64,000 nucleotides of DNA from Nitrospirota bacterium (GTDB taxonomy: Bacteria > Nitrospirota > Thermodesulfovibrionia > Thermodesulfovibrionales > Magnetobacteriaceae). The stretch lies in assembly GCA_015233895.1 (NCBI GenBank), contig JADFXG010000003.1, positions 124,001 through 188,000 on the forward strand. The letters run 5' to 3'. Position 1 is the stretch's first letter. Each line of letters begins with the position of its first letter. Positions 13,021-22,615 of the stretch are shown one piece after another. The notes below the pieces were generated by a model. It was not told where the DNA came from. It worked only from the letters and a program-made list of their open reading frames with translations, and searched no databases. Position numbers and translations under genes: made by a program.

Positions 13021-13049
13021 TTTACAAAAACTCTGTGCAGTTGTAGAAT
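13021..13049 (+). promoter_or_regulatory. Promoter of the AT-rich four-gene cassette
   Basis: TTTACA and TAGAAT are 17 bp apart, beginning three bases after the regulator's stop codon. The expected start point is near 13056, only about 11 bases before the first cassette ATG, with AAGG at the very 5' end of the mRNA. This would let the cassette be transcribed independently of its neighbours. Confidence 0.5.
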
Positions 13050-13066: not shown

Positions 13067-13711
13067 ATGGCAAATAAACAGAATATTAAAAAAAAATTAA
13101 AACCAGGAGATATTTTGCTTCTGTTGCTATACGTTGATGACTGTTCATCTATAAGAGGGCGAACAAGGCTTCAAAAAATGGTTTTTGTTTTTGAAGAGGA
13201 AATTTTGAAGCAAAATGGTTTTGACAAACTACTATCCCAAAATCACCAACAGTCCTTGTTTGACTTTAAACCTCATTATTATGGACCTTTTTCTGAGAAA
13301 GTTTTGACAAATATGGAATTTTTTGTAAACGTTGGCATGGTTGAAGCTAAATGTGATATTCAAGACGGAGATTTTGAAGAAGCTCTTGCCGGTATAGATG
13401 ATCAACAAATCCTAATGGATGATCTTAGGGAATTACCTGATGGGCTTGAAGATGATGAGGCATACGGAATTGAAGATGAATTTTGCATAGAACCTGAGTA
13501 TTTTCTAAGTGAGACTGGGAAGAAATATGTTAATGAGAAGCTCATTGTTTTTATCAGTGGAGAGCAGAAAAATGCCTTAACTATCCTAAAAAAGAATTTT
13601 AATAAAATTTCTTTAAACAATATTCTAAGATATGTTTATACTAAATATCCAAATATGTCGGAAGAATCATTAATTAAGGATACTGTGTTAGAGAAGCCAT
13701 GGCAATTCTAG
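13067..13711 (+). CDS. YwgA/SocA-like winged-helix protein
   Basis: This 214-residue protein has the GRTRLQKMVFVFEEE motif followed by FKPHYYGPFSEKVLTNMEFF and a late LSETGKKYV. That is the pattern of YwgA-like and Panacea/SocA-like proteins, a winged-helix group found next to toxins, nucleases and phage-defence genes. A stretch of about 60 residues (105-165) is very acidic. It is the first gene of a four-gene operon and overlaps the next by 13 bp. The region is much poorer in G+C than its flanks (13 G or C in bases 13561-13620). An antitoxin- or adaptor-like role is an inference from family and context. Confidence 0.65.
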   Translation: MANKQNIKKKLKPGDILLLLLYVDDCSSIRGRTRLQKMVFVFEEEILKQNGFDKLLSQNHQQSLFDFKPHYYGPFSEKVLTNMEFFVNVGMVEAKCDIQDGDFEEALAGIDDQQILMDDLRELPDGLEDDEAYGIEDEFCIEPEYFLSETGKKYVNEKLIVFISGEQKNALTILKKNFNKISLNNILRYVYTKYPNMSEESLIKDTVLEKPWQF

Positions 13712-14100
13712 AAAAAGAGCTTATAACCAGTTTTAAAGCGATATTTAATGGAAAAGATAATATGCATGAGGAGGTTGCTTTTGGTAATCGCTGCATTGAT
13801 ATGGTTCTGGTTAGAGATTCTGTAATAACAACAATCGAATTTAAAATAAATAACTGGCGTAAAGCATTAACTCAAATAGAAGACCATTTATTAGTTGCTG
13901 ATTTCTCCTATTTATGTATGCCGAAAAAAAGAATTTCAGAGGAGCTATTAACAATTCTAAGAAAAAATGGAATTGGCTTATGGCATTATGACTTTGAGGT
14001 TAATGAATTAATTGAAGTAGTAAAACCTGATAAATCCTCATACCAATTTGAATTCTATAAAAACGCTATGTTGGAAAAGCTATCCAAAAGGTCGAATTAG
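13699..14100 (+). CDS. Small PD-(D/E)xK nuclease-like protein
   Basis: The 133-residue protein shows the restriction-endonuclease-like core: Glu24/Glu25, then Asp34 in NRCIDMVLV, then Glu47-Phe-Lys49 in TTIEFKINNWRKAL, with Gln59 after it. The D-x12-ExK spacing and the hydrophobic strands around it fit the fold, and its small size suggests little beyond the catalytic core. Similar proteins in this family are nucleases or DNA-binding relatives. The start overlaps the end of the YwgA-like gene and its stop lies 3 bp before the next ATG, so the two are almost certainly translated from one mRNA. Substrate unknown. Confidence 0.65.
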   Translation: MAILEKELITSFKAIFNGKDNMHEEVAFGNRCIDMVLVRDSVITTIEFKINNWRKALTQIEDHLLVADFSYLCMPKKRISEELLTILRKNGIGLWHYDFEVNELIEVVKPDKSSYQFEFYKNAMLEKLSKRSN

Positions 14101-14103
14101 ATC

Positions 14104-15435
14104 ATGAAGGAGTCTCACTTTCTCAGATATGGGACATCTTCTGAACAAAAATATATGGCCAGTTATCAACACACTTATGATGGAATAGCAATAAATGGGA
14201 ATATGTTAGCCCATATTTCAAAGAGCATATCTCTTTTTGTCCACAAGGATATAGGAAAAGAATTTTTTATAGACCCAATGACTCATTCTTTTCAACATGA
14301 AACAGAAAAAATATCATCAGCTTCAGGTCGGATAAAGTCGTCTATCAAAAAACTTATAGAAATTTATGGAAATCCGTTAAAATTAATATTGGATGAGTTC
14401 CGTCCAATTACTGCAACCGATTTTAACACTAACAATATTCCTAAATTTGTAGCCACCGTGCTGGGATTCCAAAAAGACCATATAAGACGAAGCTTAGATG
14501 AGGAATATAGTGATTATATCGACTATTTAGAAATTTCCAAAGAGCCTATCTTTCTAATTGCACCTTACTTTTATATGCAATCAGATAGAACATTTGATGA
14601 TTGGTTTAGCTTAAACAGTAGAATGATTAACGAAAGTATAAAATTAAAGGCAGAATATAAAAAGGATATTTTTGCTGAACTCGTTATTGATAAAAAACTA
14701 CTATGTGACGAGGATAAGATAAATAAAATACTTAAAACCTATTCTGATTCAAAGATAGATGGTTTACTATACTGGATCAATGGCTTTGATGAGACTCAGG
14801 CAACTGTAGATGAGCTATCGGCAGTCAAAGATTTTGTTGTAAAATACAAACGTAGTAATCCAAATAAAAAAATTATTTCTCTTTACGGTGGTTATTTTTC
14901 TGAATTGTTAATGGGGATATCTAACGCACTTGATGGTGTTGTTCACGGTTTAGAGTATGGCGAATCACGAGAGGTAGTTCCTGTAGGTGGTGGTATTCCA
15001 ATATCAAAATATTATTTCCCGGACATAAAAAAACGCATGCCTGAACTAAGAATGTCTAAAATACTATTAGTTCTCAAAATTGATACCCCTGTTAAATTTC
15101 ATAAACAGATTTGCGATTGCAAGAAATGTAAAGAAACAATCGTAAAAGATGTTCTTCCTGATTTTAACAGATATTTTAAGGCTAAACCTAAAATTATTAA
15201 GTTTAAAAAAACAGGAAACACAAGAGAAATAGATTATCCTGAGAGAGAAAGTAAAGAGCTTTGCTTATTTCACTATCTGGAGGTTAAAAATAAGGAATTT
15301 AAATATATAAAAGAGCATGGAATATCAGACATAGCTAATGAGTTAACCAAAGTGCATGAAAAGTACAAAGAGCATTTAAACGAAATGGAGATAGGGCATT
15401 TAGAGCGTTGGGCAAAAGTTCTTAGTGATGGCTAA
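14104..15435 (+). CDS. Uncharacterised protein with TGT-like zinc motif
   Basis: A 443-residue protein I do not recognise as a named family. It alternates predicted strands and helices in a way that suggests a TIM barrel: LKLILDEF, PIFLIAPYFYM, DIFAELVID, KIDGLLYWING, KIISLYGGYF and LDGVVHGLEYGE. Near the C-terminus Cys337, Cys339 and Cys342 form CDCKKC, the CxCxxC pattern that with a later His binds zinc in tRNA-guanine transglycosylases; His390 in CLFHYLE could be the fourth ligand. TGT-like enzymes exchange a guanine for a 7-deazaguanine in tRNA, or in DNA in Dpd systems. The spacing to the His is longer than in classical TGT and no active-site match is clear. The gene overlaps the SIR2 gene by 8 bp. 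Confidence 0.5.
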   Translation: MKESHFLRYGTSSEQKYMASYQHTYDGIAINGNMLAHISKSISLFVHKDIGKEFFIDPMTHSFQHETEKISSASGRIKSSIKKLIEIYGNPLKLILDEFRPITATDFNTNNIPKFVATVLGFQKDHIRRSLDEEYSDYIDYLEISKEPIFLIAPYFYMQSDRTFDDWFSLNSRMINESIKLKAEYKKDIFAELVIDKKLLCDEDKINKILKTYSDSKIDGLLYWINGFDETQATVDELSAVKDFVVKYKRSNPNKKIISLYGGYFSELLMGISNALDGVVHGLEYGESREVVPVGGGIPISKYYFPDIKKRMPELRMSKILLVLKIDTPVKFHKQICDCKKCKETIVKDVLPDFNRYFKAKPKIIKFKKTGNTREIDYPERESKELCLFHYLEVKNKEFKYIKEHGISDIANELTKVHEKYKEHLNEMEIGHLERWAKVLSDG

Positions 15436-16486
15436 AAAAACAGTTTTTATTCTTGGGGCGGGTTTTTCATATGATGCTGGAATTCCACTTCAGGCGGCAC
15501 TTTTAAAGGAAGCATTAACCATTACTCCACCTGTATTTACATATAATAACCCTGAAGCAATTTCCTTTATGGAGTATCAGAAAAAATTAAAGGATTTTAT
15601 CAATAACTTGTTTGGTTCATTAGATAATGTAGCTTTAGAAGATATTTTTACAATACTTGATAAAAGTGTTATAGGAAAAGAACGATTTAAAGAATATTCG
15701 TGGAAAGAACTCTATGAGTACAGAGGTTATTTAGTAAATCTAATCCTTCAGGTACTTACGATAAAACTAAAAGATATTACTAATTCATCAGAAAAACCGT
15801 ATAAAAAATTTGCAGAAAAAGTAATTGAAATAAGGGAAAAAGCAGGGCAGAAAACAGACTCACTTGGAATTATTTCATTAAATTGGGACACATTACTTGA
15901 GTTATCTCTTAATAAAGCTCTTACTGATTCTAAAGATAAGAAATGCCGTATTGATTATTGTGCCTATACTCATCACAGAGACAACACTGAAGTCTCTCAT
16001 ATCAATTTAAAATCTTTGGGTTTTTATAATATTAAAGTGTTGAAATTGCACGGCTCCTTAAACTGGCTTTATTGTAGTAATTGCGGACGATTGTATGTAG
16101 ATGATGGAAATATTGGTATTGAAAAAATAGAATGTAATTACTGCAAATCTTATACGGAAAAATTATATGAAGAGCCTCTTATAATTACCCCAACAATGAT
16201 AAAAGAACTGCATAATCTTCATATTAAAAATATTTGGCAAAATGCCTTTATAGAAATACAAGAGGCGACTGATATTTATTTTATAGGATATTCACTTCCT
16301 TACGCCGATTTCGAGTTTAAGTATATTTTGAAAAAAGCTATTGATAAAAAAAGCAAAATAACTGTTGTTCTGAGTAAAAATGACGAAACAAACGGAACCA
16401 ACAAAAGATATCAAGAGTTCCTTGGTAATAGTGTGAAACTATATAATGGCGGATTCTCTGACTGGATAAGTAATAATAATATTTAG
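15428..16486 (+). CDS. SIR2-family protein with zinc ribbon
   Basis: A 352-residue NAD-binding protein. It starts with the nucleotide loop FILGAGFSYDAGIP, has Asn152-Trp-Asp154 in ISLNWDTLLE, and His208 in KLHGSLNW at the place of the sirtuin catalytic histidine. Cys216, Cys219, Cys236 and Cys239 (CSNC and CNYC) form a zinc ribbon, and IGYSLPYADFEFKYIL closes the fold. In phage-defence SIR2 proteins (Thoeris ThsA, DSR, SIR2-HerA, SPARSA) the equivalent Asn and His destroy NAD+ to abort infection. Whether this one is an NADase or a deacylase is open. The ATG at 15428 is preferred; a GTG lies directly before it. It is the last gene of the cassette, and codon use is AT-rich (17 G or C in bases 15661-15720). 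Confidence 0.8.
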   Translation: MAKKTVFILGAGFSYDAGIPLQAALLKEALTITPPVFTYNNPEAISFMEYQKKLKDFINNLFGSLDNVALEDIFTILDKSVIGKERFKEYSWKELYEYRGYLVNLILQVLTIKLKDITNSSEKPYKKFAEKVIEIREKAGQKTDSLGIISLNWDTLLELSLNKALTDSKDKKCRIDYCAYTHHRDNTEVSHINLKSLGFYNIKVLKLHGSLNWLYCSNCGRLYVDDGNIGIEKIECNYCKSYTEKLYEEPLIITPTMIKELHNLHIKNIWQNAFIEIQEATDIYFIGYSLPYADFEFKYILKKAIDKKSKITVVLSKNDETNGTNKRYQEFLGNSVKLYNGGFSDWISNNNI

Positions 16487-16492
16487 AGCTTT

Positions 16493-16539
16493 AGGGGAGG
16501 GGTGAGGCACCCCCGCCGTTATGGGCAGCGCCTTCCCCT
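16493..16539. terminator. GC-rich hairpin between convergent genes
   Basis: An inner GGGGTG/CACCCC stem is nested in an outer AGGGGAGG/CCTTCCCCT pairing with one bulge. It sits between the ends of the SIR2 gene and the lipoprotein gene, where a two-way terminator would be expected. There is no strong T-tract, so the role is tentative. Confidence 0.4.
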
Positions 16540-16550
16540 TACTTATTCCT

Positions 16551-17177
16551 TTATCTCTCAAACTTAACATCTTCAGTAACAATCGTAAACTTATACCCGC
16601 CTACAGTTGCAGTGATACGGTTCGGGTACCATACACCCCCAAGCCACTTTACATCTCCATAGGCAATGTGCAGAATGCCGCCTCTGGGTAAGTATATAAA
16701 TTGTTCAATTGGCATCAGAGATTCACTATCTAAAACCATTTGTTGGCGGGGTTGTTTGATTTTAAGGTATCTGCCCTCTGTTGTGATATTATTTACGTTA
16801 TTAATCCACCAGAACAGTCCGTTTTTAATACATAGCGAGATGAGTTGCTCCTCTTCGGGTTTTAACTTCGGCTGACTGTAAAACACTCCGCCACGCTCCC
16901 GGAACTCGCCAACCGGTATGCCAAGCGTATAGAGCTTAACTTCATACTCGTTTGGAGAGAGTTTCATAGAGGCCATCCCGGACATGTACGCATCGTGCAT
17001 CTGCATGGAAATGTCGGCAGTACCCTTTATCTGACGGATTGCTCTCAGCCGGCTGATAAATTCATCGAATGATATTTTTTCGTAATTCTCTTGTACTGGA
17101 ACATACTGAGTACATGAAAACAACATGACAGTTAAGATGACAAAAATAAGTGATTTAATAATTGATAGCGGCTTCAA
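16551..17177 (-). CDS. Outer-membrane-type lipoprotein, LolB/DUF4292-like
   Basis: The 208-residue protein begins with a lipoprotein signal ending LFSC (cysteine about residue 22), so it is lipidated. The body, with TADISMQMHDAYMSGMASMK, LYTLGIPVGEF and later beta-rich segments, resembles the LolA/LolB-like fold of DUF4292 lipoproteins, which handle lipoproteins or lipids at the outer membrane. The start is a TTG at 17177 inside the end of radA (23-bp overlap) with GGAGG close upstream; no other start would keep the signal sequence. Translation is probably coupled to radA. A specific LolB role is not proven. Confidence 0.65.
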   Translation of the reverse strand: MKPLSIIKSLIFVILTVMLFSCTQYVPVQENYEKISFDEFISRLRAIRQIKGTADISMQMHDAYMSGMASMKLSPNEYEVKLYTLGIPVGEFRERGGVFYSQPKLKPEEEQLISLCIKNGLFWWINNVNNITTEGRYLKIKQPRQQMVLDSESLMPIEQFIYLPRGGILHIAYGDVKWLGGVWYPNRITATVGGYKFTIVTEDVKFER

Positions 17178-22450: not shown

Positions 22451-22485
22451 AAAAAAACCGCATTCCTATACTTGAAGGAATACGG
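22451..22485 (-). terminator. Intrinsic terminator of the TPP riboswitch
   Basis: Reading on the minus strand, CCGTATTCCT pairs with AGGAATGCGG over ten pairs (one G-T), with an 8-base loop, followed by seven Ts. It lies between the riboswitch and thiS, so it is the expression platform: TPP binding should favour termination before the thi genes. Confidence 0.88.
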
Positions 22486-22492
22486 CCTTTAG

Positions 22493-22598
22493 CCCTTTTC
22501 CCTCCGTCGGTATAACCCGTATCAGGTTCAAGGGGTCACCTTATAATAAGGTTTCTCAGGCTTAACACCGATTTCGTGTTTTTAGCCTCCCCCAAGGG
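22493..22598 (-). promoter_or_regulatory. TPP (THI-box) riboswitch
   Basis: On the minus strand the conserved TPP aptamer elements appear in order: GGGGGAGGC, a short hairpin (AACAC/GTGTT), GCCTGAGAAA, a variable stem, then ACCCCTTGAACCTGATACGG and GTTATACCGACGGAGGGAA. An outer CCCTT/AAGGG pairing can form P1. It is followed 7 bases later by an intrinsic terminator and then by thiS. Confidence 0.95.
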
Positions 22599-22615
22599 TA
22601 CTGCTTAATTGGATG

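Follow-up and report, generated by a model that had tools for sequence, protein, structure and literature searches.

A cassette of four genes in a 64,000-nucleotide stretch of DNA from a Nitrospirota bacterium (family Magnetobacteriaceae; contig JADFXG010000003.1, positions 124,001 to 188,000 of the forward strand), referred to here as the window, probably constitutes, as judged from comparative sequence analysis, a horizontally moving defence system of the abortive-infection type in which a constant three-gene core is combined with an interchangeable effector. Pointing to this are the conserved linkage of the genes, the predicted folds and intact active-site residues of their products, the exchange of the effector gene between loci and the defence genes in the surroundings; the sensing of an invader, a distinct role for each core protein, hydrolysis of NAD+ and suicide of the cell would complete the system. 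All four open reading frames (ORFs) lie on the forward strand, and they overlap by 13 and 8 bp and leave one gap of 3 bp, exactly as described in an earlier first-pass annotation, which was made from the sequence alone:

13067..13711, + strand: P1 gene, ORF for a 214-aa Panacea/SocA(YwgA)-like protein
13699..14100, + strand: P2 gene, ORF for a 133-aa predicted PD-(D/E)xK nuclease-fold protein
14104..15435, + strand: P3 gene, ORF for a 443-aa protein of predicted tRNA-guanine transglycosylase (TGT) fold
15428..16486, + strand: P4 gene, ORF from ATG for a 352-aa zinc-ribbon SIR2 protein, the candidate effector

An alternative GTG start for P4 is located at 15425. The ORFs can be taken as real genes because homologues in the same order exist in other phyla.

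The three-gene core and its exchangeable partner

An alignment of P1 proteins served as the sole bait in one genome-wide scan of contigs, and the ORFs of the loci found were then searched with P2 and P3 profiles. The scan found 34 loci spread over some ten phyla, with carriers among the Bacillota, Bacteroidota, Spirochaetota, Melainabacteria, Aminicenantes, Chloroflexota, Actinomycetota, Wolfebacteria, Bdellovibrionales, Halobacteria, Thermoplasmatota and others, and homologues of both P2 and P3 adjoin P1 in 25 of the 34, with overlaps or tiny gaps between the cassette genes throughout. Chance adjacency of P1, P2 and P3 is negligible, because the P3 profile matches just three of 396 Nitrospirota genomes. 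The first-pass annotation had proposed the set as a candidate defence system, and the idea survived the search for its four families elsewhere: many phyla have them side by side, and the loci are often part of defence islands. P3 is, on these profile searches, a better marker of the cassette than SIR2 or P2, which are not specific because their profile relatives in Nitrospirota occur outside it.

The earliest P3 relatives to be found lie on one Arthrobacter plasmid, on three Haloarcula plasmids and in a genome of the same class (G156). P1 and P2 adjoin P3 on all four plasmids; in G156 a Ser/Thr kinase is fused to P3, P2 comes next and a split GmrSD lies upstream. Cultured carriers include Moorella mulderi DSM 14980 (SIR2-type; L021, 7893-11424), Glaciibacter superstes DSM 21135 (membrane-type; L045, 7899-10717), Arthrobacter and Haloarcula sinaiiensis. 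Scans of IMG/VR with P3, with the P1 alignment and with a Haloarcula P3 alignment returned no relatives, and P3 found no match in the phage collection; four P3 proteins, once aligned, proved too divergent to yield a search pattern.

The fourth gene was classified in 25 loci: it encodes a SIR2 protein homologous to that of the window in 11 (L017-L022, L025-L028 and L031) and a membrane protein in 13, the remaining locus being interrupted by a transposase (L046, in which a transposase-like gene splits P3), and none of the 25 carries both. Genes of the SIR2 type are ordered P1-P2-P3-SIR2, or in four loci in the circular permutation P3-SIR2-P1-P2. The order in the membrane type is P1-TM-P2-P3, TM being a protein of ∼180–220 aa that is unrelated to SIR2 and encoded between P1 and P2 (in L033 and L034 this gene, and in L034 also P1, was identified by visual inspection of the frames, the ORF picker having chosen others). 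Pfam gave no name to the membrane proteins; by hydrophobicity most of those analysed have a single N-terminal helix, followed by a soluble stretch and a pair of C-terminal helices, a layout that resembles SLATT/S-2TM effectors.

Because the membrane-type loci L023 and L029 nest on the P3 tree in a 12-row clade that is otherwise SIR2 (support 96/96), and because P1, P2 and P3 of the Haloarcula plasmid loci L015 and L016 are 79–81% identical and their fourth genes unrelated, effectors are evidently exchanged on a stable P1-P2-P3 core. Effector labels cluster on the P3 tree far more than shuffled labels do. The description of the system as SIR2-based is thus too narrow, since the constant part is P1-P2-P3 and a membrane protein replaces SIR2 in about half of the loci. 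On Haloarcula sinaiiensis pHsi540 the SIR2 that follows the core belongs to another subfamily (PDC-S25/ThsA-like). In L016 (6388-7605) a 405-aa protein with zinc-ribbon-like ends stands in place of SIR2 after P1-P2-P3 and is possibly a further effector type. L031 (4067-5908) holds P3 and SIR2 in one reading frame, without the zinc end of P3 or the initial ∼55 SIR2 residues; either the two are naturally fused or part of the sequence has been deleted in frame.

Predicted folds and conserved residues of the four proteins

The AlphaFold2 model of P3 (predicted local distance difference test score, pLDDT, 89.3; predicted template modelling score, pTM, 0.89) was compared with known structures in VIA, in which the best match was 1iq8 (Z 22.6, root-mean-square deviation, rmsd, 3.0 over 300 aa) and all 50 of the 50 best rows were TGTs. 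By its predicted fold P3 belongs to the TGT superfamily, zinc subdomain included, and the CxCxxC...H zinc site is kept in 18 of 20 homologues, so that the TGT-like zinc-motif protein described in the first-pass annotation is borne out. Pfam, NCBIfam and PADLOC gave nothing usable for P3, the Pfam TGT model fails to recognise it and a P3 sequence profile found no match in the PDB; the kinship is visible by fold alone. Residues of P3 referred to below are encoded as follows:

14272-14274, + strand: D57
14962-14964, + strand: E287
15112-15129, + strand: C337, C339 and C342, zinc ligands
15271-15273, + strand: H390, zinc ligand

Conserved among the 20 homologues are D57 (in IDPxTxxFQ), W224, E230, Y261-G262, G278 and E287. 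With strands matched by order, D57 corresponds to the Asp of the TGT DSGGFQ motif and E230 to TGT Glu235. The nucleophile of TGT is an Asp at the end of strand 7. The corresponding end in P3, positioned by strand order and not by superposition, carries His, Asn or Ser, with Asp in none of the 20, and the nucleophile is apparently missing; hhalign to canonical TGTs aligned the zinc region only and did not map the catalytic positions with certainty. The suggestion that the cassette contains a modification module is therefore doubtful: despite its TGT fold P3 has, on this strand matching, no Asp at the nucleophile position. A 402-aa frame in a genome of the same family (L086; G310:C4:82160-82984), separate from the canonical TGT of that genome, gives a weak TGT-family match (2.2e-5) and may be another repurposed TGT.

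P2 was likewise modelled with AlphaFold2 (pLDDT 94.4), and VIA matched it to 3dnx (Z 13.1, rmsd 3.0 over 124 aa) and, at Z about 10, to XisH (2okf) and EndoMS/NucS (5gke). E47, K49 and Q59 are invariant in 27 of 27 homologues and D34 is present in at least 90%. As the first-pass annotation had supposed, P2 is a PD-(D/E)xK nuclease by predicted fold and by its D...ExK motif (D34, E47-x-K49), with the key residues at:

13798-13800, + strand: D34
13837-13839, + strand: E47
13843-13845, + strand: K49
13873-13875, + strand: Q59

P4 matches PADLOC SIR2 at 2.2e-12, the matches in that database being to generic SIR2 models. Its Asn152, Asp154 and His208, named in the first-pass annotation, are all present, and the GAGxS, Asn152-Trp-Asp154 and His208-Gly-Ser motifs and the four zinc cysteines are invariant in 10 of 10 homologues:

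15881-15883, + strand: Asn152
15887-15889, + strand: Asp154
16049-16051, + strand: His208
P4 residues 216, 219, 236 and 239, + strand: the four zinc Cys

The protein carries the catalytic Asn and His of SIR2 NADase effectors and is predicted to hydrolyse NAD+. Relatives of this SIR2 in other Nitrospirota adjoin apparent DNA methylases, a helicase or a second SIR2 (by eye), as would be expected of a shared effector. One Nitrospirota locus (L106, 1490-6616), in which two different SIR2-like proteins, one of them close to that of the window, flank a 951-aa protein, is a candidate for a separate defence locus.

The likeness of P1 to YwgA/SocA proteins, also part of the first-pass annotation, is present but weak. 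P1 matches PADLOC PDC-M19A in part (1.3e-8) and scores 13.3 bits against SocA_Panacea, below the family cut-off of 25.7; the same model is matched at E<=0.05 by 12 of 25 P1 family members, the best value being 2.9e-5, and profile comparison with one Panacea protein gave E 0.06. P1, in which G31, K37, F40, F67, G73, P74, L183, V190, Y191 and S201 are invariant, is thus weakly indicated to be a divergent Panacea-like protein. In L021 (12759-14718) and L050 (6569-8588) a P1 homologue overlaps a gene whose product has HD and HD_assoc_2 domains, possibly a second, different P1-based two-gene module. In the haloarchaeal loci L038, L042 and L044 (7241-8453) a P1-like gene overlaps a 251-aa gene by 8 bp, a recurrent pair that has neither P2 nor P3 and whose partner is TrmB-like in L038.

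Genomic surroundings and possible acquisition

Many cassettes lie within or next to other defence loci (BREX, restriction–modification or GmrSD). In L020 and L027 the cassette is found within BREX loci, with DUF6079/BrxC upstream and PglZ or PglX downstream. It is preceded by a C5 methylase and HpaII in L023/L024, by a C5 methylase and an HNH nuclease in L026, by a type IIG enzyme in L028 and by Eco57I-like methylases in L015/L016, and is flanked in L029 by an MmeI-type enzyme and by a C5 methylase plus a type II enzyme. A PHP-SMC-type Ppl is encoded near the cassette in L037, and GmrSD is a neighbour in L007. Such neighbours are less common among P1 loci without P3, examined as a control, of which two in eight have a defence-like one.

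The low G+C content noted in the first-pass annotation is confirmed, the cassette having 31.3% as against 42.9% in the remaining window. Its 3.4-kb stretch is the window minimum among stretches of equal length, 3.7 standard deviations under the mean, and G+C at third codon positions (GC3) is 0.23–0.27 in the cassette genes as against 0.38–0.50 in the flanking genes tested. The source genome is 3.7 Mb in size. A relative of the same genus carries a near-identical cassette. In two other genomes of the genus homology to the window begins only at 16551-16556 and the sigma-54-activator gene found upstream of the cassette is located elsewhere, so that the cassette is placed, on alignment of these genomes, at a synteny breakpoint. 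Horizontal acquisition fits the sequence data, because of this breakpoint and the G+C of 31%.

Two flanking elements of the cassette had also been annotated:

13021..13049, + strand: sigma-70-like promoter box TTTACA-17-TAGAAT, 10/12 matches, of a kind found at chance frequency
16487..16550, strand not assigned: inverted repeat, G+C-rich (61%), separating P4 from a convergent lipoprotein-like gene

The letters of the promoter box are as reported, but its significance is weak, as the region holds 16 promoter-like sites and chance alone would give 17.6. The hairpin 3′ of P4 is indeed a G+C-rich repeat but has no T-run and is not called a terminator here; its stability is not significant (z -1.5; 18 of 200 shuffles equally good). 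Elsewhere in the window a tandem array occupies 960-1516 (96-bp unit, 5.8 copies, 90% matches), and a thiamine pyrophosphate (TPP) riboswitch is found at 22481-22603 on the minus strand, with thiamine-biosynthesis-like genes downstream on the same strand.

Proposed mechanism, related systems and alternatives

In the proposed mechanism P1-P2-P3 would be the sensing and licensing part, freeing the interchangeable effector once invasion is sensed. P3 would serve as the recognition subunit, its TGT fold remodelled for recognition of a nucleobase or nucleic acid in place of base exchange; Cap10 of type IV CBASS is an earlier example of a TGT-family protein remodelled for immunity. P2 would act as a nuclease on nucleic acid and may generate or process the signal, and P1 would restrain the effector or act as an adaptor, holding or coupling it. 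The SIR2 protein of the window would hydrolyse NAD+, the small multi-helix membrane protein of other lineages would breach the membrane, and at one locus the effector would be the kinase fused to P3. It is conceivable, and offered tentatively, that P3 has lost base-exchange chemistry and become an immune sensor of a phage-altered nucleobase, tRNA or DNA state, switching on the paired effector, of whichever kind, together with P1 and P2; this would be a further independent conversion of deazaguanine machinery to an anti-virus trigger, in bacteria and archaea.

No named system corresponding to the set was found in PADLOC 2.0.0 or the open-licence literature, in keeping with the first-pass annotation. 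P2 and P3 proteins (of the window, L019 and L036) are unmatched in PADLOC-DB 2.0.0 except for window P2 to PDC-S41 (E 0.022), and open-licence papers on TGT with SIR2 or defence, a body outside which most subscription papers and preprints lie, contain no description of it. Membership of Dpd, CBASS, Thoeris, DSR and prokaryotic Argonaute (pAgo) systems was rejected on gene content. By analogy, the cassette may work like known effector-swapping abortive systems but on a different core. The long-B pAgo systems BPAN, BPAS and BPAM, in which Argonautes pair with nuclease, SIR2 or membrane effectors to bring about abortive infection (PMC10620215), similarly have a shared invader sensor with outputs exchanged among lineages, but the cassette has no Argonaute and its proposed sensor is made up of TGT-fold, small PD-(D/E)xK and Panacea-like proteins. 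Cap10 is a TGT-family protein repurposed for anti-phage immunity by remodelling to bind a nucleobase-conjugated protein N-terminus (PMC11996544); unlike type IV CBASS, the four cassette genes include neither a CD-NTase nor a QueC-like Cap9. BREX-related capture (BRC) links a TGT homologue to BREX components, but comprises PglZ, DUF6079, STAND, DUF4007, HerA, GNAT and TGT, and neither SIR2 nor Panacea is mentioned in the main text describing it (PMC12839542); in L020 and L027 the cassette is a separate unit inside the BREX locus. P4 shares catalytic Asn/His with the SIR2 effectors of Thoeris, DSR and short pAgo systems, Aga_SIR2 being among its PADLOC matches, but is short (352 aa), with an internal four-Cys zinc ribbon and no long C-terminal region, and the TIR protein ThsB of Thoeris and the Argonaute of pAgo-SIR2 systems (SPARSA/BPAS) are lacking from the cassette.

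Panacea proteins restrain a toxic partner (PMC8832971, PMC10440598), and the cassette could be read as an addiction module in which P1, as antitoxin, directly neutralises the toxic SIR2 or membrane protein, P2 and P3 are accessories and there is no dedicated phage sensing. P1 is Panacea-like and abuts the effector in the membrane-type and P3-SIR2-P1-P2 loci, and Panacea antitoxins pair with many unrelated toxins, membrane proteins included (PMC8832971). Such a module is nonetheless unlikely: P2 and P3 are retained across bacteria and archaea with their active-site or pocket residues conserved, which would be difficult to account for if they were passive accessories, none of the 34 loci is a two-gene pair of P1 with either kind of effector, and embedding among restriction–modification (RM) and BREX genes points to defence. 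In comparison with Panacea systems, P1 falls below the Panacea cut-off and belongs to a three-gene core as against a two-gene pair, and the main texts of both papers mention no SIR2 partner. As Panacea has itself been proposed as a sensor (PMC10440598), the two readings may merge.

An RM-like system of the Dpd type, in which P3 would insert a 7-deazaguanine self mark into host DNA or tRNA, P2 would cut unmarked nucleic acid and the SIR2 or membrane protein would act as back-up killer, is less likely still. Dpd likewise joins a TGT-fold protein, DpdA, to nuclease partners in a defence setting (PMC6884629, PMC12839542), as does the cassette with its PD-(D/E)xK protein; D57 lies in a D...FQ motif resembling DSGGFQ of TGT, and deazaguanine precursors should exist in the source genome, which has QueC and a canonical TGT. 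The apparent absence of the strand-7 nucleophile from P3 argues against base insertion, as do the loss of the zinc site in some P3 proteins and the lack of DpdC (DUF328) and deazaguanine-biosynthesis genes from the cassette, which also differs from Dpd in having no DpdB and in its SIR2 or membrane effector. A loose cluster of four genes brought together by chance in an AT-rich island, with no joint function, is highly improbable; it could draw on the separate occurrence of P1, P2 and SIR2 but is contradicted by the same-order overlapping clusters recovered in many phyla from one bait, by the circularly permuted order and by effector swaps that cross lineages.

Several points weigh against a dedicated defence system with a conserved sensing core. 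The bait was built from P1 proteins known beside P3, so that the scan shows recurrence across lineages and not a fraction of all P1-like proteins. Members of the P1, P2 and SIR2 families can each be found apart from the other two and are therefore promiscuous parts, P1 is a weak Panacea match, and the zinc cysteines are absent from three P3 proteins (L003, L034, L035). Several cassettes, that of the window included, have no recognised defence gene adjoining, and the neighbours cited were hand-picked and the control is small, so that no enrichment statistic is claimed.

If the proposal of a core with interchangeable effectors is correct, the cassette would be a modular immune system of wide distribution whose sensing core is new, and the TGT fold would serve immunity outside CBASS and Dpd. 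It would also provide a natural experiment, with chemically different suicide effectors under the control of a single core, and the cultured carriers make the cassette directly testable.

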